DNA from: Pseudomonadota bacterium
GTDB taxonomy: Bacteria; Pseudomonadota; Gammaproteobacteria; Acidithiobacillales; Acidithiobacillaceae
Length of the DNA stretch: 57,450 nt
Direction: 5' to 3'
Assembly: GCA_021821885.1 (NCBI GenBank)
Contig: JAKARO010000011.1
Coordinates: 1-57,450 of the forward strand
In this document: piece after piece, positions 1,633 through 9,347 of the stretch
Layout: each line of letters starts with the position of its first letter
How positions within the stretch are numbered: the first letter of the stretch is position 1
Notes under the pieces: model-generated
Seen by the model: the letters and a program-made list of their open reading frames with translations, nothing else
What the model was told of the DNA's origin: nothing
The model's database searches: none
Translations under genes and position numbers: made by a program

Positions 1633-1657
1633 CGGAATTATGTAGCAGTTGCCAAAA
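1633..1657 (+). repeat. Left terminal inverted repeat of the IS1595-family element
   Basis: It begins CGGAATTATGTAGCAGTTGC and runs for 25 bases. It is the exact reverse complement of 6893-6917, with no mismatch. Identity stops sharply after the run of four A at 1654-1657. Confidence 0.9.
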
Positions 1658-1703
1658 CCGAATTACTACAATAGGGTACGGCACACGTTCCTTGCCAGCC
1701 CCT

Positions 1704-4700
1704 TCATTTTGTTTTTGCTGAAATCCATTTCAGCAGAATAGCTTCGCCATCCTGTTCCACCTTAGCCACCAACCTGGCGCGTTTTGCGGCGTCGTGCTCA
1801 TTGTGAGACTTCTCCACCAGTTTCGACAGCGCGACATGAGAGGCATTTGTGGCATCATATTCAGGAAGATTCATGTGCTTGAACACGTCACCCATTTGAA
1901 TGGATACGGTGTGGCTTTCCACCCATTCACGCACCATGGGAGTATTCAATAGACCGCAGAGAAAATATGCCGGTTTTTTGGTATCGAACCCTGCGAAGTA
2001 CACTTTGTGGTCTGGCACATACGGTCGAGATCCCGCTACCGGCACCGTCGAACTTCCTGCTACTGCCGCGTAGAAGCGGGAGGACATTTCCGGCCACACC
2101 ACTTTCCATGGCTGAAGGGTGTAGTCGCCCACGTTGTACACGTCGTAGAAAGGAGCGCCTTTCATTTGACGCCGGTACGTGGAACGCACTTCCAGCAATG
2201 TCTTGTATGCGGTGAACCAAGCCTTGGTCTTTGCCAGCGGAACGCCATTCATGGCGATTTCGCTGGCAGTGTAGTCGGCCTTATCTATGCCTATGTTGGG
2301 CACGAAAGTGTACAATTTTTCATCAACTCTACCGGGGTTGTTCAGGTGTAGATAGCAGGATTCAAAGTCGCCTGCACCCTTTACCAAGGGGTAAAGCAAC
2401 GTCGGCTCTACCCAAGCTGTCTTCACCGCGCCCAATGCCTTTTTACCCGCCTCTGGGCGACTGCGAATCTGTACCAGTGTGCCGTTGTCTTGAATCACAG
2501 GTACGAAATACACGCCGTTCAAGTCCGTGGTGATCCCCTTGCGCCCCGCTGTCCATGTGCATTCACCTGAAATCGCCTTCAATGCCTTGAAGCGTCCCTT
2601 GGTTAGCACCGCCCACGGAGAGCCGTTTCCATCGACAGGCGCGGCCTCCTTGGCGGTAATTGAAATCCGCCCCATCACCGCGGATAAAGAGGAGTTGACC
2701 GGGATGGCTCTGGTGAAACCTGGGGCGCTGTTCCATAGCCGGTATGGCACAGGGTAAGTGGCGGGTTTTTTGGATTTGTCGAAGACCGCTACTACTGTGT
2801 GGTTGGCGGCATCATTGAATGGCTTCAATGCTTTCATGTCATCGACACTGATTGGGGTGAGGTGCAGGCTTTTGGCCTTGGATGGTTCTAATTTGAAGTG
2901 CCTGAACCCCGCCGAAGAGGGGTTCTTGAAGATGGTGCCGGTGATAACAAAGGCTAGCCTACCATTCGGTTTCAGCCATTTATCGGACGTGGTGTAGGTA
3001 ATCATGGCAGAGATGTCCAGCTCGTTGCCACCATGACGCTTGTTCTTGGAGAAGATGCCGTAACGTTCGCACGTTGGCTTAACCCGTTCGCGGTATGCGT
3101 CGGGCAATTTCGACCACCGAACCCATGGCGGATTGCCTAAGATGCAATCGAAGTGACCCGCCGTGGCCGACCAGAAAAAGTTTCGCACCACGCGAAACCA
3201 GATGCCGTTCCACTGCTGGCGATGCAGTTCCAAAATCTGGTTGTAGGTATGTTTCAAAGGGGGGCGCCAGTCGGAAGCTTCGGTGGCGTTTAGCAGACCG
3301 GCAGACTGCAATTGCGTTTCTGCTTCTTCGTAGTCCAGATCGCTTTCAACGTCCTCGCCCATTTGAGCAAATACTTGATCCAAACGAACGCGGTTGAAGG
3401 CTAGTGCGGCGGGTAAGGCAATGTCCAGCCCGGCCACCTGGCTACCGATTTGGTACTTCACCACCTCCTGCCCCTTTTCCGGGTTCGGCGCGGGCGAATA
3501 GATGGCATCAGCGAGCAACACAGGGATTTCCAGCGTTTGCCCCGGCGCAGCCTTCAATAGATCGGCGATTTCCATCAAGAAGTTGACCCGTGCAGTTTGT
3601 ACTGCCAAGGGGTTTAAGTCGAAGCCCCACACGGACGTGCATAGGTGCTGCACAATATGTTTCGCGTCCCATCCAGCCTTTGTGGCTTCGTCTCGAATAC
3701 GGCGAAGAACGGCCACCAAGAACGCACCCGACCCGCATGTGGGGTCCAGAGTACGTTTGTTCAACCAGGGCTCTTGTTGGGCCATATCCACCGTGAAATC
3801 TACTAGCCAGTCCGGCGTGTAGAACTCCCCGAGACTCTGGCGAAGTTTGCCAGGGACTAGACCTTGGTACAGATCGCGCAACACATCTCGGGTGTGTGTC
3901 ATGTAGTCCGTGCGGTACATCGACAACGACGCCAACACGCCGCGTAATGCGGGGAGCAGTGTTGGTGCGTGAGTAGCGTTGCGTGCAACGTCCAAGTACC
4001 AACTGAAAATGGCTTCTTCAACAAATCCATGAATACCGGCTTGAGCAAAAATGCCCGCGTGTTCGATGTCGTGATCCAGGGCATCCAATAGTGCCGTGTT
4101 ATCCAACAAGGCCGCCATGGCTTGCGCTGGCTGTTTAGTCGTGGTCAAACCGTGGGCTGAAATAATTTCTGCGGCCAGCAGCTTGATAAGCAGCGAGTTG
4201 TACGAGTGGATGACGAATAGCCGCCCCGCCATGGCTTGCTTTGCTTGCCCATTCCAAGTGAAGCCCATTTCCCCATTGATAGCGGTGGCTTGCAAAACAG
4301 ACATGTCGGCTACTTGGCCGTAGAGAGTGCGCCATTCCTCGAACAGCATTTTGATCTTGGAGTTGCCCTTTGCCGTCAATTCGGCGGCAAGCGCATCACC
4401 CATCGCCTGCATTAAGGCTTGAGCATTGGCTGATCTATGGCCGAAGTCGGCAAGAAGGTTGTCCACAGTGATGGCGCGGCGCGTGTCGGCTTTGATTGCT
4501 GCTATCACCAACGCCACGGCGTATTCCGAGAAGGGCACCAAGTGCTGCGAATAGATGACTCCGGCGCGTACCTGAGCGAAGCACACATGATCGCCGTCAA
4601 TGGCGATGCCGATGTAATCCTCGGTAGGGATGCCAGACTTAGTTGCTTCGCGCTGGATGTATGGCAACAAGCGTTTGTCAGTGGCTTCCTTGAACTTGGC

Positions 4701-4913
4701 GCTGGCCTTGGAACCCTTGAACAAGCCGGGAGCTTTAAACTCAATGATTACGTTGTTGTAGCTGCTATCCTTTTTCGCCCGCTCTGCATCAAAGTGGATG
4801 CCCATGGCTGCTTCCAGTCCAGCCACCCAGGCTAGTCGCACTTCTTCTTCGTTTTGCCATGGCCGGTTACGTTTAGCGGCTATGTGGTCGAAAGCGATCT
4901 TTGTGGAAACCAT
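1704..4913 (-). CDS. Type IIG restriction-modification enzyme (nuclease-methylase fusion)
   Basis: This 1069-residue single-chain enzyme is predicted to modify adenine at N6 and cut DNA. Residues 40-65 hold a PD-(D/E)xK-like core (D49, then IIEFK with E58 and K60). A helical region follows, then GEFYTPDWL (362-370), SAM motif I DPTCGSGAF (390-398), GFDLNP (about 430) and the N6-adenine motif NPPW (594-597). The C-terminal 400 residues probably hold target recognition. The start ATG overlaps the stop of the upstream HTH gene (TAATG), so the two are translationally coupled. It lies inside the IS1595 element. Recognition site unknown. A methylase with a degenerate nuclease is the alternative. 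Confidence 0.82.
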   Translation of the reverse strand: MVSTKIAFDHIAAKRNRPWQNEEEVRLAWVAGLEAAMGIHFDAERAKKDSSYNNVIIEFKAPGLFKGSKASAKFKEATDKRLLPYIQREATKSGIPTEDYIGIAIDGDHVCFAQVRAGVIYSQHLVPFSEYAVALVIAAIKADTRRAITVDNLLADFGHRSANAQALMQAMGDALAAELTAKGNSKIKMLFEEWRTLYGQVADMSVLQATAINGEMGFTWNGQAKQAMAGRLFVIHSYNSLLIKLLAAEIISAHGLTTTKQPAQAMAALLDNTALLDALDHDIEHAGIFAQAGIHGFVEEAIFSWYLDVARNATHAPTLLPALRGVLASLSMYRTDYMTHTRDVLRDLYQGLVPGKLRQSLGEFYTPDWLVDFTVDMAQQEPWLNKRTLDPTCGSGAFLVAVLRRIRDEATKAGWDAKHIVQHLCTSVWGFDLNPLAVQTARVNFLMEIADLLKAAPGQTLEIPVLLADAIYSPAPNPEKGQEVVKYQIGSQVAGLDIALPAALAFNRVRLDQVFAQMGEDVESDLDYEEAETQLQSAGLLNATEASDWRPPLKHTYNQILELHRQQWNGIWFRVVRNFFWSATAGHFDCILGNPPWVRWSKLPDAYRERVKPTCERYGIFSKNKRHGGNELDISAMITYTTSDKWLKPNGRLAFVITGTIFKNPSSAGFRHFKLEPSKAKSLHLTPISVDDMKALKPFNDAANHTVVAVFDKSKKPATYPVPYRLWNSAPGFTRAIPVNSSLSAVMGRISITAKEAAPVDGNGSPWAVLTKGRFKALKAISGECTWTAGRKGITTDLNGVYFVPVIQDNGTLVQIRSRPEAGKKALGAVKTAWVEPTLLYPLVKGAGDFESCYLHLNNPGRVDEKLYTFVPNIGIDKADYTASEIAMNGVPLAKTKAWFTAYKTLLEVRSTYRRQMKGAPFYDVYNVGDYTLQPWKVVWPEMSSRFYAAVAGSSTVPVAGSRPYVPDHKVYFAGFDTKKPAYFLCGLLNTPMVREWVESHTVSIQMGDVFKHMNLPEYDATNASHVALSKLVEKSHNEHDAAKRARLVAKVEQDGEAILLKWISAKTK

Positions 4914-5206
4914 TACTGCTCCTCGCTAAGTTGTTTGCCACCAAACTTACCTTTTGCCGCCGATCCCCGAGGCTTCGCCGCATCAAAATGAATTCGCGAT
5001 AACGCAGAACGAAAATCCAATTCGTGATCTGCCATGTCCGCCATCAGCGCCACGATAATCGCCAGATGGGGGGGCACCTCACCCTGCGCGGCATAGTTGG
5101 TGATGGAATTTGGTTTCTGCTTAATCAGTTCGGCGAAGCTTTTAACTGTTAAGCCAGCCTTACCCAATTGCCGTCGGAATTCGTCATAAGTCATGGCTGG
5201 GATCAT
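4913..5206 (-). CDS. Small HTH protein, possible controller of the R-M gene
   Basis: This 97-residue basic protein has a helix-turn-helix-like segment at about residues 8-45 (FRRQLGKAGLTVKSFAELIK, then SITNYAAQGEVPPHLA) and a charged tail. It is the first gene of a two-gene unit and its stop overlaps the ATG of the R-M gene, an arrangement seen for controller (C) proteins of R-M systems. Homology to a named C-protein family was not recognised. An in-frame second ATG at 5194-5192 is possible. I kept the first because a GGAG lies 11 bases upstream. The tandem palindromes at 5299-5341 are candidate binding sites. Confidence 0.65.
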   Translation of the reverse strand: MIPAMTYDEFRRQLGKAGLTVKSFAELIKQKPNSITNYAAQGEVPPHLAIIVALMADMADHELDFRSALSRIHFDAAKPRGSAAKGKFGGKQLSEEQ

Positions 5207-5238
5207 AAAACAAACCGCTCCGTTTGCACAGTCTTTAC

Positions 5239-5268
5239 TTTATACAACAAATCAACTGAAGTGTGCAA
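5239..5268 (-). promoter_or_regulatory. Promoter for the HTH and R-M genes
   Basis: On the minus strand, TTGCAC (5268-5263) and TATAAA (5244-5239) are separated by 18 bases. Transcription would start near 5232, about 25 bases before the HTH start. It is back to back with the transposase promoter. Confidence 0.55.
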
Positions 5269-5293
5269 CAATGTTAATAATGTGCTTTTGTGC

Positions 5294-5321
5294 TTGCAAC
5301 ACATAGTAGTCTGTGTATAAT
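5294..5321 (+). promoter_or_regulatory. Promoter of the IS1595-type transposase
   Basis: TTGCAA at 5294-5299 and a perfect TATAAT at 5316-5321 are separated by 16 bases. Transcription would start near 5328, 30 bases before the transposase ATG. The -10 box lies between two palindromic repeats. Confidence 0.6.
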
Positions 5322-5341
5322 AAACACATAGTTTACTGTGT
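5299..5341. promoter_or_regulatory. Tandem operator-like palindromes over the transposase promoter
   Basis: ACACATAGTAGTCTGTGT (5299-5316) and ACACATAGTTTACTGTGT (5324-5341) match at 15 of 18 positions. Each has ACACA/TGTGT arms, and their centres are 25 bases apart. They flank the TATAAT, so a bound protein would block the transposase and could also affect the divergent R-M promoter. The likeliest ligand is the 97-aa HTH protein (inference). Confidence 0.55.
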
Positions 5342-5357
5342 TTGCGAGGTTCGCAAT

Positions 5358-6380
5358 ATGTCCCAACACTTCCTGCTCTCCGCCAAAGCTCGCACCCTCT
5401 CGGTACGCAAGGTCATGGAAATGACCCATGACCAGGCGTTTCAGGTGTTCAGGGAATTGCGCTGGGGCGAAGGAGAAGAAACCGCCTGCCCGGTGTGCGG
5501 CACCATCGATAGGCACTATTTCCGCAATGACCGGAAGCAATGGCGGTGCAAGGCTTGCGCCCATGCGTTTTCCGTCACGTCTGGTACGATCTTCGCCAAT
5601 CACAAGCTGCCGCTGAAGGTGTACCTGGCGGCGATTGCGATCTACACCAACGCGGTCAAAGGTATTTCAGCACTGCAACTGAGCCGCGACCTCGGAGTCC
5701 AGTACAAGACCGCCTTCGTCCTGGCTCACAAGATCAGAGAATCCCTGATGGAACACCGCGACGATGCACCCTTGGCCGGGGAAGTCCACATGGACGGCGC
5801 TTATGTGAATGGGCACATCCGCCCGAAGAACAAGAAGGAAGACCGCATAGACCGCCGCCTGGCGATCCACCAGAAGCCCGGTAAACGCTGCGTGTTCGTG
5901 ATGCGCCAGAGGGTGGAAGCCGTTGAGGATGAAATCAGGGGTTCCAACAAGACACTGACCTTCGTTATCAAAGCCGAGAATCAGACCGACGTGAGCAAGC
6001 TGGCAAATGAATTCGTGAAGAAAGGCTCCACGATCTGCGCCGATGAATCCAACGCCTACGATCCGCTGCATGCCAAGTTCGACACCCGGCGCGTCAATCA
6101 CAGCCAGGAATACCAGGCCGACGACGGCACGACGAACAATCTGGCGGAATCCTACTTTTCCCGCTTTCGCCGGATGCAGTACGGCCAGACGCACAAGTTC
6201 GGGAATCTCTATCTGGCGAACTATGCCAACGAGGCCGCCTACCGGGAAGATACTCGCCGCTGGAACAACGGCGCGATCTTTGCCGACATCACCAAGAAAT
6301 GCGCCCACACCAGGACCAGCCGGGACTGGTGCGGATACTGGCAGGGGAACAAGCGCCAAGCCGAGCGGCTGGCCGCGTAG
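5358..6380 (+). CDS. IS1595-family transposase (ISXO2-like DDE domain)
   Basis: This 340-residue transposase starts MSQHFLLSAKARTLSVRKV. An N-terminal zinc ribbon (CPVCG ... WRCKACAHAFSVTSGTIF, about residues 40-75) is followed by the ISXO2-like catalytic domain. The first Asp lies in HMDGAYVNG, the second in ADESNAYD, and the late NNLAESYFSRFRR segment supplies the third acidic position. Length and order fit the family and the frame is intact. I chose the ATG at 5358 because GAGG lies at a good distance. An in-frame start at 5313 lies inside the promoter/operator. It converges on the 149-aa gene with one base between the stops. Confidence 0.92.
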   Translation: MSQHFLLSAKARTLSVRKVMEMTHDQAFQVFRELRWGEGEETACPVCGTIDRHYFRNDRKQWRCKACAHAFSVTSGTIFANHKLPLKVYLAAIAIYTNAVKGISALQLSRDLGVQYKTAFVLAHKIRESLMEHRDDAPLAGEVHMDGAYVNGHIRPKNKKEDRIDRRLAIHQKPGKRCVFVMRQRVEAVEDEIRGSNKTLTFVIKAENQTDVSKLANEFVKKGSTICADESNAYDPLHAKFDTRRVNHSQEYQADDGTTNNLAESYFSRFRRMQYGQTHKFGNLYLANYANEAAYREDTRRWNNGAIFADITKKCAHTRTSRDWCGYWQGNKRQAERLAA

Positions 6381-6381
6381 G

Positions 6382-6831
6382 CTAGACGATTCGCCAAAGC
6401 ACCGTCAGGCCGTTTTCGGCGCGTCCCACGTCCTCGACCAGCCCGCGATTCACCAAGCGCCGGAGCGTTCCATTCAACGTGCGCTGAATGGACGTGCGCA
6501 ACTCCTTCGTATCCTCCAAGCCTTTGGCAACGATGATTCGCTCCGCCATGACGACGGTCGTCAAGGGCTGCCCTGCCTCTCTAAGCTGATCCAGCACCCA
6601 AGTATGGCTCTCGCGGCTCTCGAAACGCTTGAAGCCGCCTGTACGGGATGAACTGACCCGCTTTGCACCCAGACTGCGCAAGTCCATTTCCGGGGCGAAC
6701 AACTTGAGCGTGGCGTCCAGGTGCTTGAGATCGGACGCGACGCGCTCGATCTCTGTCCGGTGAAACTGGATCAATCCAGCCAACTCAGCGTGTTTTGCAA
6801 TCAAGCCTGAAACAACATGGGATTCTGCCAT
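6382..6831 (-). CDS. Coiled-coil and winged-helix protein, IS1595 passenger
   Basis: This 149-residue protein has an N-terminal heptad-like helix (about residues 17-45, FHRTEIERVASDLKHLDATL), a basic linker with GAKRVSSSRTGGFKRF, and a C-terminal winged-helix-like half (about 75-149, HTWVLDQLREAGQPLTT ... TLNGTLRRLVNRGLVEDV). This suggests a dimeric DNA-binding protein. It reads inward from the right inverted repeat, and a TATAAC (6868-6863) and AGGTG precede the ATG. I do not recognise a named family. Its place inside the ends makes it cargo or a helper of transposition. Confidence 0.6.
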   Translation of the reverse strand: MAESHVVSGLIAKHAELAGLIQFHRTEIERVASDLKHLDATLKLFAPEMDLRSLGAKRVSSSRTGGFKRFESRESHTWVLDQLREAGQPLTTVVMAERIIVAKGLEDTKELRTSIQRTLNGTLRRLVNRGLVEDVGRAENGLTVLWRIV

Positions 6832-6892
6832 GATGCACCTGTTTTGGAATTAAGGAACAGGTGTTATATTAGTGACTTACGAAGAATAAATC

Positions 6893-6917
6893 TTTTGGCA
6901 ACTGCTACATAATTCCG
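6893..6917 (-). repeat. Right terminal inverted repeat of the IS1595-family element
   Basis: Exact reverse complement of 1633-1657 over 25 bases. The element ends at 6917 and the duplicated target follows at once. Confidence 0.9.
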
Positions 6918-6925
6918 GGAAATAT
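6918..6925. repeat. Target site duplication, right copy
   Basis: GGAAATAT, identical to 1625-1632. Removing the element and one copy would restore an uninterrupted AT-rich region. Confidence 0.9.
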
Positions 6926-7327
6926 TCCGTCAGCAAATTTATGGGGTACCATCCGCAACCTAACGGAATTCAAATTTTTTTGCACTCCAGGTTCTGCAGA
7001 TCCAATATTTCTTAATAAAAGGAATTTATCGGTCTTTTTTTGTCGGAGTAGCGTCGGGGGCAGAAAATCTGGTGGGACGTTTTGGGCCAGGTTTTCGGCA
7101 GATTTTCCTGCCGGGCCTGGAGGGGTGCCATCCTGGCTGTTCCAGAAGGGACAGTAACAGGTTTGGGTATCGGTTTCTGGATGTGCCCTGACCGTGTTCT
7201 ATCCGGATTTCCCTGTGTGCAGGTCTGACCGGGAGGGTTGCCCGGACTGCCGTCCGGACACTTGTACCGGCGGTGCGGCAGCAGAAGCCTGTGCTTTTCT
7301 TTCTGGCCGTCCCGCCCGTTGTGGTGA
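6926..7327. other. Intergenic region with one hairpin, no gene seen
   Basis: No frame here looks coded. It holds a two-tier hairpin at 7087-7120 (CCAGG ... CGGCAG-loop-CTGCCG ... CCTGG). This could end transcription of the DUF302 gene on the minus strand, although no clean T run follows on either side. The first part is AT-rich and may be the downstream half of the region split by the IS1595 element. Confidence 0.4.
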
Positions 7328-7819
7328 TCAGGAATGACTGCCAGGGATGCTCTTCAGGCTGCCAATGACCATATGGTCAATTTTTTCGCCAACAGCCTGG
7401 GCGCCAGTCCCCTTGGTATACGCAGAGCGTTCGGCGTAGGCCACCGTGGTGACTTTCCCCTTGCTGTACAGGGTCAGGTTCAGGGGGCATACCGAGGCGG
7501 TTTTCGAATCCCCGTTGAGCAGTCCGCTGAAAAGAAAAGGGTTGCAAAATACAAGGGCCCGTACGTCGCTGTACCCTGGCTTGTTGAAGTTCGGGATGTG
7601 GAGCATCTTCTGCTTCGCATCAATCTTGCGCAGGATGTCAATATTCATGACCACCTTGAAATGGTGGTGGGTAAGAGCGGCCCGTACTTCTTTCTGGGCG
7701 ACGGGCATCGATGCCGGAATGGTTTCCACATAGATGGATGCAGCCTGGGCGGTGCCTGCAAAAGCAGCCAGGATTCCGGCGGTCAGGCCAAGGGACTTTA
7801 TAAGCAATCCATTTTTCAT
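7328..7819 (-). CDS. Secreted DUF302-family protein
   Basis: This 163-residue protein has a signal peptide (MKNGLLIKSLGLTAGILAAF, cleavage likely after AQA at about residue 26). The mature part resembles the DUF302 fold: ALTHHHFKVVMNIDI, then RALVFCNPFLFSGLL, then VCPLNLTLYSKGKVTTVAY, matching the NP ... PL ... vxxY pattern of the family. The function of DUF302 is not established, although members often occur in sulfur oxidisers. Two Cys (in FCNPF and SVCPL) could bind a ligand or form a disulfide in the periplasm. It is divergent from the porin and DsrE-like genes and shares their upstream region. Confidence 0.72.
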   Translation of the reverse strand: MKNGLLIKSLGLTAGILAAFAGTAQAASIYVETIPASMPVAQKEVRAALTHHHFKVVMNIDILRKIDAKQKMLHIPNFNKPGYSDVRALVFCNPFLFSGLLNGDSKTASVCPLNLTLYSKGKVTTVAYAERSAYTKGTGAQAVGEKIDHMVIGSLKSIPGSHS

Positions 7820-7925
7820 TGAAATTCTCCACGGTTAAATTTAAGAGTCATTAATCTTCTGGCTGTCCCTAACGGGAATGCCGGTTTCCTGATTTTTGTC
7901 CAATTTGAGACTATTGTGACGGAAA

Positions 7926-7950
7926 TGCGTTACCATCTTCATGGTACGCA
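7926..7950. promoter_or_regulatory. Operator-like inverted repeat between DUF302 and porin genes
   Basis: TGCGTTACCAT-cttc-ATGGTACGCA is a long inverted repeat with one unpaired T. Its core at 7930-7945 nearly repeats the motif at 1609-1624. It lies in a 184-base divergent intergenic region, upstream of an AT-rich stretch (7972-7984) and of the GGGGTGGGG ribosome site of the porin. It is a good candidate for a shared operator. The regulator is unknown. Confidence 0.5.
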
Positions 7951-8003
7951 AGTTGCATACTAAGCTTCCAGCATAAAAAATCAACAGGGGTGGGGAACAA
8001 CCG

Positions 8004-9347
8004 ATGGAAAGGCTACGGAAAATTGCGCTCTGCACATCCGCAGGCGTATCAATGGTGGCGTTCGCTTCCACTGCTACGGCTGCAAACTGGTTTAAACTGC
8101 AAGATTTGAATCCTCCAAAAGTTTCTCTGTTTTCTGGATTTATTGAACCAACCATATGGGCCATGCCCGGAACTTCGGCATCCATATACAATCCAAATCT
8201 GCATAGATATTTTGAGGCTGTTCCTCGCGCAAATCTGGTAGGACCAAATTTCGACAGGAGTACGACCCTGACGATACAGCGTGCGCGGCTGATGATCCGG
8301 GGATGGGCTAACCGCCATATTTCCTATTTCTTTGCCGGGGAATTCGGGAATAATGCGGCTACCAATATCGGTGGGGGATATCAGCCCCAGCTGCAGGATG
8401 CACATATCGTATTCAGCTATATTCCCGGGGCACGGGTCGAAGTCGGCATTATCCGTGCGCCCAGTGCTGAAGATGCGATGAATGGCTATATGAGCTACAA
8501 CTATGCCGTTTTTCCATCGGTCATCAACCAGTTGATGCTGCAGCCCTTCTACAATACAGATGCGGCCACCACTGTGGGTGCCCCTTCGCGCGGGTCCTAC
8601 CTGATACCCGGTTCGGCCGGATTGGGCGTGAATGCTTTCCGGTATCCAGGCGTGCAGCTTTTTGACTGGAAAAACTGGGGGCACTGGCAGCTGGCCTATG
8701 GGGCTATGGTGGGGATGTTCGGTAGCGTTTCAGCCGAGAACCAGTCCCACAGTCCCCTGTATGCTGCGCGTGTACAGGGTTCCTACATTTTCGGGGGGCA
8801 TGGTCCGTTCCGCAGCGATGTAACTGCCTGGCTGTGGTACCAGTATGCACAGCCCACGCTACTGGGCCGCAGCTATGCCATGCAGCGGGAAGGCACCGGT
8901 TTCCAGTATCTGCAGGGATACATGCATCCCTGGGGACGGATGCTGAAATTCGAGTATATGCAGGGCAACGGCTGGATTGCCGCTCCTTCAGCCTTCAGTC
9001 AGCAGCTGGGCCTTGCTCCGGCACTCTACCAGACCCAGCTCTATCCCGGCATCAGCAATTCCGCCTCGGGATACTATGTCGAAGGTGGGCTCTTCCTTAC
9101 GCACCATGTCGAGCTGAGCCTCCGGTACGACTACTATGACCGCCTGCCAAACATTCCGGCCCAGGAGCGTATTTTTAAAACCTGGGCGGTAGCGCTCCAG
9201 TACCATATCACCCCCATTACCAAAATCATGGCGGGGTACTATTTCCGTACCATCAAGGCTCCTTTCGTTGCTTCGAATACCCCGGGCGCGGCGGTAAGCC
9301 GGGCCATGGACAACGAATTTGCCATGCAGGCCATGATTTCGTTCTGA
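8004..9347 (+). CDS. Outer-membrane porin-like beta-barrel protein
   Basis: This 447-residue protein has a signal peptide ending at TATAA (about residue 27). The body has alternating aromatic beta strands (TIQRARLMIRGWANRHISYF, AHIVFSYIPGARVEVGIIRA, VELSLRYDYYDRL) and a C-terminal Phe (MQAMISF), the signal for outer-membrane insertion. The strand pattern recalls phosphate-selective porins of the OprO/OprP type, but substrate cannot be read off. A strong purine-rich ribosome site precedes the ATG. The DsrE-like gene starts 16 bases after its stop, so the two are one unit. It may admit or export sulfur compounds (inference from neighbours). Confidence 0.8.
   Translation: MERLRKIALCTSAGVSMVAFASTATAANWFKLQDLNPPKVSLFSGFIEPTIWAMPGTSASIYNPNLHRYFEAVPRANLVGPNFDRSTTLTIQRARLMIRGWANRHISYFFAGEFGNNAATNIGGGYQPQLQDAHIVFSYIPGARVEVGIIRAPSAEDAMNGYMSYNYAVFPSVINQLMLQPFYNTDAATTVGAPSRGSYLIPGSAGLGVNAFRYPGVQLFDWKNWGHWQLAYGAMVGMFGSVSAENQSHSPLYAARVQGSYIFGGHGPFRSDVTAWLWYQYAQPTLLGRSYAMQREGTGFQYLQGYMHPWGRMLKFEYMQGNGWIAAPSAFSQQLGLAPALYQTQLYPGISNSASGYYVEGGLFLTHHVELSLRYDYYDRLPNIPAQERIFKTWAVALQYHITPITKIMAGYYFRTIKAPFVASNTPGAAVSRAMDNEFAMQAMISF

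Follow-up and report, generated by a model that had tools for sequence, protein, structure and literature searches.

Our analysis of a 57,450-nucleotide stretch of contig JAKARO010000011.1 from a bacterium of the Acidithiobacillaceae (the window) identified a transposon of 5,285 bp at positions 1633-6917, which very probably is a self-contained element of a subgroup of the insertion sequence (IS) family IS1595, with two core genes between ends of about 25 bp (CGGNATTATGTAGC) and an exchangeable slot for a regulator and cargo, occupied here by a single-chain type IIG restriction-modification (R-M) enzyme. As far as sequences can tell, this reading is carried by the ends, the target duplication, the gene set, the basic plan of the relatives, different defence cargo on near-identical backbones, and identical relatives at different sites. 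It looks like one member of a family of small elements by which anti-virus defences are spread and exchanged. Its features are the following:

1625-1632, no strand: left copy of the 8-bp target duplication, GGAAATAT (sequence)
1633-1657, plus strand: left terminal inverted repeat, 25 bp (repeat search)
1704-4913, minus strand: type IIG R-M enzyme, 1069 amino acids (aa) (PADLOC match, motifs)
4913-5206, minus strand: helix-turn-helix (HTH) regulator, 97 aa, like Cro and C proteins in its predicted fold (open frame, predicted model)
5294-5321, plus strand: promoter-like site TTGCAA-16-TATAAT upstream of the transposase gene (motif scan)
5298-5341, no strand: two operator-like repeats, ACACATAGTAGTCTGTGT and ACACATAGTTTACTGTGT, placed in tandem around the -10 at a spacing of 25 bp (repeat search; p 0.037 for the window element singly)
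5358-6380, plus strand: IS1595-family DDE transposase, 340 aa, with zinc ribbon and the motifs HMDGAY, CADE and NNLAESYFSRFRR (Pfam, NCBIfam, motifs)
6382-6831, minus strand: putative transposase companion, 149 aa, predicted to have an N-terminal long helix and a C-terminal winged helix (clustering, predicted model)
6893-6917, minus strand: right terminal inverted repeat, 25 bp (repeat search)
6918-6925, no strand: right copy of the target duplication, GGAAATAT (sequence)

The terminal inverted repeats are perfect, and both GGAAATAT copies are exact and directly adjoin the element ends. By our own arithmetic, a perfect 25-bp pair would be expected by chance in about 5.8 kb with a probability of the order of 1e-8, and the flanking 8-bp match with a probability of about 1.5e-5; chance repeats were therefore ruled out. 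When the 1.74-Mb genome was searched for the 25-bp repeat with up to 3 mismatches, the only 2 occurrences were the ends of the element, and, as there is a single internal transposase, a composite transposon was also ruled out. The HTH gene and the R-M gene run leftward from the middle, the stop codon of the former overlapping the start of the latter as TAATG, whereas the transposase gene runs rightward and the 149-aa gene converges on it at a distance of 1 base. All four frames are open. A sequence-only reading of this DNA had proposed an IS1595-family transposon carrying a whole type IIG unit, with perfect 25-bp repeats and an exact 8-bp duplication enclosing a transposase, an R-M enzyme of 1069 residues, its HTH gene and a winged-helix protein; the repeats and the adjoining duplication were found, all four genes lie between the ends (the winged helix being that of a predicted model), and the profile matches of the transposase and the R-M enzyme, as well as the relatives, agree with the proposal. 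Outside the element, IS3-type transposase genes adjoin the left end (227-1421), with an integrase-core part that is split over overlapping frames (592-999 and 966-1421) and looks broken.

The transposase, counted from the start common to its homologues (an upstream GTG would give 355 aa), matched the Pfam family DDE_Tnp_IS1595 at 7.4e-47, an N-terminal zinc ribbon at 5.9e-12 and the NCBIfam IS1595 model at 1.2e-41, which is above the cut-off, and its catalytic and zinc motifs are present. The DDE_Tnp_IS1595 domain, the N-terminal zinc ribbon and the 8-bp target duplication together place the element in the IS1595 family. The R-M protein matched the PADLOC model REase_MTase_IIG at 3e-231 over residues 21-1046 and contains D49...E58-F-K60, which we take to be nuclease-like, LDPTCGSG at 389 and NPPW at 594, so that nuclease and N6-methylase parts appear to be joined in one polypeptide, as in type IIG enzymes, and the protein is presumably capable of restriction. 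No Pfam family above cut-off was found for the 149-aa protein. Its AlphaFold model (46 sequences; mean predicted local distance difference test score (pLDDT) 85.8; predicted template modelling score (pTM) 0.50) consists of a 44-residue helix followed by a winged helix and is nearest to MarR-type regulators, with a modest best Foldseek E value of 2.3e-3, and when sequences of the winged-helix family were compared with solved structures, only weak matches resulted (best E 0.026). On the basis of this model, we infer that the protein may be a DNA-binding dimer that works with the transposase.

We also compared relatives of the transposase. Genome contigs scanned for the transposase yielded 49 related loci (L numbers below), and 29 of these, in which both ends could be placed (nine needed longer DNA stretches), form together with the window element a set of 30, which is thus a set of transposase relatives with two ends found and not a random sample. 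The 20 loci left out (L009, L017, L019, L020, L028, L029, L032, L034, L038, L040, L041 and L043-L051) had an end missing or not found, or were fragments or degenerate copies. Weak ends were listed only when the duplication matched in at least 5 of 8 positions; L005, L025, L033 and L035-L037 depended on that rule, and their ends were recovered also by a search that ignored the duplication. Genes were called with a simple script of our own, which missed the winged-helix gene of L027, found separately. The 8-bp duplication was exact in 24 of the 27 testable elements, in which both flanks were present, and inexact in L014 (2 of 8 mismatched), L022 and L027 (3 of 8 each); L007, L031 and L065 reach a contig end.

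The elements have a common layout: the left end is followed by cargo, which mostly points leftward, then in most cases by a small regulator, the divergent transposase, the winged-helix gene in one or two copies, and the right end. In L005, L007, L027 and L039 there are additional frames downstream of the transposase as well, before the winged-helix gene, the cargo operons of L061 and L063 are rightward, and the LexA-like gene of L014 is separated from the transposase by two small genes. The transposase and the winged-helix gene were present in all 30 elements (29 winged-helix genes by clustering, and that of L027), and the latter occurs as two tandem diverged copies in L021, L030, L061, L063, L065 and L066. 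The regulators fell mostly into three groups, namely DUF6471 in 14 elements (Pfam match shown for L033), the HTH group of the window in 7, plus L027 by tblastn, and LexA-like S24 peptidases in 5 (Pfam match shown for L010). IS1595 elements usually have a single transposase gene according to one account (PMC8101967); the elements here have one transposase gene and, in all 30, a second gene, the convergent winged-helix gene. L062 and L063, which are different elements on different contigs of the same genome, have the same 8-bp target (GGCAAGAC/GTCTTGCC), and L011 has GGCGAGAC; a target preference or a repeated target is possible.

Distant relatives with 40-50% identity were found on alphaproteobacterial plasmids. 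Four of these (L067, L068, L069 and L072) measure 1.5-1.7 kb and have no cargo; they contain only the transposase and a winged-helix homologue, their ends are similar, and their 8-bp duplications are exact. The other distant elements contain about 1-3 kb of extra genes each, with more in L107. Of the 18 distant loci tested, 13 had a duplication that matched in 8 of 8 positions and L070 had one that matched in 7 of 8, whereas the ends could not be paired in four (L106, L041, L043 and L047); the scan for these ends scored the duplication itself, and its evidence is weaker than that of the main delimitation. In a tree of the transposases, the resolution of which was poor (18 of 40 inner branches were open, and several branches were long), an alphaproteobacterial group including the cargo-free units was set apart (97/96), and cargo types were scattered.

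The sequence-only reading had suggested looking for other copies with different cargo, and these were found in number among the relatives. In 24 of the 30 elements the cargo includes recognisable genes for R-M or another kind of defence, 15 by a profile match of their own and nine (L011, L014, L021, L022, L025, L030, L035, L058 and L059) by clustering with a matched protein. The cargo comprises the following:

Type IIG: the window element, L025, L030 and L066
Large methyltransferase (MTase) or PglX-like single-chain enzymes: L011, L058, L059 and L064
Type III: L010, L022, L027, L035 and L036, with a fragment in L014
Type II pairs: L006, L015 (HindVP-type nuclease) and L063 (XamI-type nuclease)
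MTase: L031 (partial, 1.6e-23) and L037 (with a GmrSD-HNH gene)
Gene clustering with the GmrSD-HNH gene of L037: L021
SspB, C, D and E: L060
JetD-like gene, with a very large neighbouring gene that matches SMC weakly: L061
MkoC-like helicase: L062
MTase and MukB-like gene: L065

The putative type III nuclease/helicase of L027 gave no PADLOC match at 1e-12, and therefore the type III assignment of L022 and L027 rests on the methylase. Among smaller cargo genes, a DUF5131 gene recurs in L006, L011, L058, L059, L066 and L107, the last with a distant transposase, mostly beside a second recurring gene (PADLOC candidate PDC-M30A for L006). Towards the left end, L021, L022, L030, L058, L059, L065 and L066 encode a small protein that begins much like MLIFxDTEFTD and may be a 3'-5' exonuclease (that of L066 had a weak Pfam match); a metallophosphoesterase sometimes accompanies it.

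Comparison of individual elements shows that backbones and cargo recombine, and that regulator and cargo are swapped as modules. For instance, the transposases of L015 and L058 are 97% identical, and their regulator families and R-M systems differ. L022 and L065, from one genome, have transposases of 95%, regulators of 96% and transposase-adjacent winged-helix copies of 35% identity, with different R-M systems. L035 and L037 have in common 1.87 kb from the regulator to the right end (85.6% DNA identity) and 41 bp at the left end, around different cargo. The window element and L042 are 85% identical in the transposase, 84% in the winged-helix protein and 46% in the HTH protein, and no similarity was found between their cargo. 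Over 406 pairs, transposase identity correlated weakly with winged-helix identity (rho 0.18). The transposase of L107 is 36% identical to that of the window and 43% to that of L011, whereas 2.3 kb of regulator and cargo are 80.5% identical between L107 and L011. This shared stretch ends about 25 bp before the aligned transposase start, so that the transposase promoter moves along with the regulator.

Elements of this kind move, as is shown by identical copies at different sites. Two Acinetobacter species carry nearly the same element, L035 and L036 (99.95-100%), with different exact duplications and no flank similarity over about 1 kb per side; the two differ chiefly in a GCACA tract of 16 versus 3 copies. 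A further genome contains two identical copies of 3,243 bp, L102 and L103, which occupy separate sites and are flanked by duplications that differ. The sequence-only reading had suggested recent activity of the window element; movement is shown for relatives, whereas for the window copy, which looks active, it is only suggested. In the genus relative G003, a single GGAAATAT is present at the matching place and the joined flanks align through it, the right flank well and the left only weakly, which gives weak support for the empty site that the reading had proposed to look for.

The regulator of the window may control more than its own operon. No Pfam family above cut-off was found for the HTH protein. 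Its model (pLDDT 77, built from 6 sequences) had Aca1, N15 Cro, HigA2 and C.Kpn2I as nearest folds, all of them weak (E >= 0.034; 0.21 for C.Kpn2I). R-M controller (C) proteins are encoded by a small HTH gene before the R-M genes and bind operators of their own promoter. The position and predicted fold of the window HTH would fit such a protein, whereas the operator-like sites face the transposase instead: the TTGCAA-16-TATAAT site, in an element whose count of promoter-like sites was not above that of shuffles, is overlaid by two ACACATA...TGTGT repeats with a spacing of 25 bp, and L015 has a similar arrangement as judged by eye. In the 75 bp upstream of the transposase of all 30 elements, tandem repeats scored 284 compared with 260.8 in shuffled sequences (standard deviation (sd) 5.2; maximum of 300 shuffles 278), and four control stretches lay between -1.9 and +1.6 sd. 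Furthermore, promoter similarity followed regulator identity with transposase identity held fixed (partial rho 0.37), and not the reverse (0.04), and none of 2,000 permutations of family labels reached the observed difference. This correlation fits a repressor acting on the transposase.

Repeat tracts provide another possible level of control. There were 12 tracts of 4-, 5- or 7-bp units in 233 kb of element DNA and none in 199 kb of flanking DNA. In L006, L010, L011, L014, L025, L030, L035, L058, L059, L064 and L065 no more than about 360 bp separate the tract from the 5' end of a called R-M or MTase gene, and in L021, which has the twelfth, the tract is upstream of a frame resembling a methylase by eye; L107 has a GCTT x13 tract at the start of its IIG gene. 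With tract lengths taken from assemblies, which may be compressed, 8 of the 11 tract-bearing genes have an upstream ATG in a different frame. In L064 and L065 the upstream ATG is in frame, and the only ATG of L035 is in another frame; in L036, the sister of L035, the frame stays open through the tract. These tracts suggest phase variation in the relatives. They resemble those of phasevarions in that tetra-, penta- and heptanucleotide units lie at the 5' ends of R-M genes, and differ in being transposon-borne; the R-M gene of the window has no tract and an open frame.

Taken together, the element might work as follows. The transposase would join the two ends to a new site, giving rise to the 8-bp duplication, and the slot between the left end and the transposase would hold an exchangeable regulator and cargo operon. 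The HTH protein, encoded by the first gene of the R-M operon, would bind the tandem sites over the transposase -10 and could repress both the cargo and the transposase. In a new cell without HTH protein, the transposase, and perhaps the R-M operon, would be expressed first and then shut down. The winged-helix protein would bind DNA as a partner or regulator of transposition, and the host would gain defence and the element retention. A broader interpretation, somewhat short of probable, is that these are dedicated defence shuttles, in which a two-gene IS gained an interchangeable cassette of regulator and defence genes. A repressor governing cargo and transposase would allow a burst of transposition in a repressor-free cell before restriction builds up, R-M cargo without such timing would be made safe for naive hosts by phase variation, and cassettes would hop between transposase lineages. 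If this is true, immunity would be passed on in plug-in modules. It is a standing question how defence systems, R-M among them, get from one bacterium to an unrelated one and persist after entering a genome that is not protected. The question becomes testable with a compact, precisely delimited vehicle that consists of two core genes, a defined place for cargo, a regulator linked to the transposase promoter, and R-M cargo that often bears tracts. In addition, exact cargo boundaries help in the discovery of new defence genes, for instance among the unrecognised cargo of six elements.

Several observations weigh against our reading of a mobile element with a regulated defence slot. The window element is present in a single copy in its genome, and the left flank of the G003 site alone scored 31 compared with a shuffled maximum of 32. 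The tandem-repeat test applied singly gave p <= 0.05 in only 5 of the 30 elements, so that the operator evidence is modest, and only 4 of 30 reached this level in a palindrome test for operators. Some of the correlation between promoter and regulator is expected from co-inheritance alone, as the two lie next to each other. Three of the 30 elements fall outside the common regulator groups (another small HTH gene in L021, none called in L060 and L062), and no defence gene was recognised in six (L005, L007, L016, L033, L039 and L042, whose proteins were not all scanned singly). Host flanks hold defence genes too, including a type III methylase and type I genes, and the elements may sit in defence-rich regions.

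A rival explanation is that this is an ordinary transporter IS which picks up any neighbouring genes, R-M genes being frequent in it because they are frequent in mobile DNA. Siguier, Gagnevin and Chandler reportedly described in 2009 an ISNha5 group of transporter ISs in the IS1595 family. The group is listed in ISfinder with CGGnnTT ends, lengths of 3.45-7.9 kb and DDER/K, and the window element, whose values (CGGAATTATG, 5,285 bp, NNLAESYFSRFRR) would fit this description, may belong to it; no Nitrobacter was among the 18 plasmid records matched. Transporter ISs with passenger genes, ISNha5 among them with a "transcription regulator", are in print (PMC11891212), and this regulator could be the winged-helix gene. 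The IS1595 DDE transposase with zinc ribbon, the 8-bp duplication and passengers unrelated to transposition are alike in both; here, in contrast, the winged-helix gene is constant, the regulator is mostly divergent with its own promoter region, and the slot of elements of 3.5-15 kb holds mostly R-M or other defence systems. The six elements without recognised defence genes, one of which (L033) carries a PAAR-motif gene at 6609-7121, would suit unselective capture, as would the ten extra proteins scanned from seven distant elements in part: PADLOC matched none of those from L102, L071 (inositol monophosphatase) and L073, and the cyclase/NUDIX protein of L070 gave a weak candidate match only, whereas L107 encodes a type IIG enzyme, L105 BstA-type and RhuM-type proteins (3896-4816 and 1315-2370) and L104 a Bro-N protein (PADLOC candidate). 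R-M homologues also occur outside such elements: 22 plasmid records were matched, and the stretches analysed from 3 of these contained no window-type transposase or winged-helix gene. For example, L119, on an Azospirillum brasilense plasmid, encodes a 72% identical R-M enzyme (5001-8186), with no homologue of either core gene within the 13 kb examined. The R-M gene is therefore not bound to this vehicle. L025, the sole delimited element with a close (80% identical) R-M homologue, holds it inside its own repeats with an exact duplication, so that the objection named in the sequence-only reading, R-M genes of relatives lying outside the repeats, does not apply to it. Unspecialised capture is at odds with the 24 elements carrying R-M or defence genes, with the confinement of tracts to element DNA, and with PADLOC at 1e-20, where matches, counted as families and not as proteins, numbered 146 among 91 cargo proteins of 29 elements (the commonest in 6 proteins) versus 50 among 95 flank proteins of at least 200 aa from 18 loci (each in 1-2 proteins). 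We consider it rather unlikely.

Selfish addiction, in which the main role of the R-M enzyme would be to retain the element through the death of cells that have lost it, is in our view unlikely. In a single-chain IIG enzyme, restriction and modification reside in one protein and dilute together, which does not favour such killing. The out-of-frame ATGs of tract-bearing genes, including that of L025 in its assembly, argue against constant addiction in the relatives. The position of the cargo inside the ends agrees with addiction, and R-M systems can kill post-segregationally and stabilise mobile elements, as stated in PMC3874152. A dead relic, inserted once and kept by the host for its cargo, is very improbable, for although the element is single-copy and eight genus genomes contained besides it only distant IS1595 transposases, its four open frames, catalytic and zinc motifs, perfect ends and duplication, and the mobility of its relatives speak against it.

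The subgroup can be set beside other carriers of defence genes. Tn7-like transposons have a TnsABC-type gene set, and this identity was rejected for the window element, as the sole transposase among the four main genes between its ends is of the IS1595 family. The cargo of Tn7-like transposons is enriched for defence genes and crosses hosts, according to Benler et al. 2021 (PMC8649781); the defence cargo is thus alike, whereas the machinery here is different and far simpler, with one DDE gene and one companion. Mobile R-M units include IS-flanked R-M complexes, the PluTI element and IS-linked movement of PaeR7I, with inverted repeats or IS and some with short target duplications (PMC3031569, PMC3874152). 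In these sources, such units are described as composite, IS-linked or R-M-only, whereas here the R-M gene is cargo of an autonomous single-transposase element, in a family whose cargo is interchangeable. In the open-licence PubMed Central literature searched, we found no account of an IS1595 group in which defence cargo dominates and modules are swapped.

The DNA of the transposase and winged-helix gene had no match in E. coli genomes, and the transposase had none in phage records at 1e-30; one viral-contig match apparently was to the same contig as L032. Around census centres picked for carrying the element, which biases the rates upward, hits at E <= 1e-60 were obtained in 8 of 158 genomes in the family of the Gallionella centre G010 (7 of them with at least 72% identity), in 9 of 237 genomes in the family of the Methylobacter centre G018, and in 6 of 392 genomes drawn from the family of the Undibacterium centre G015.

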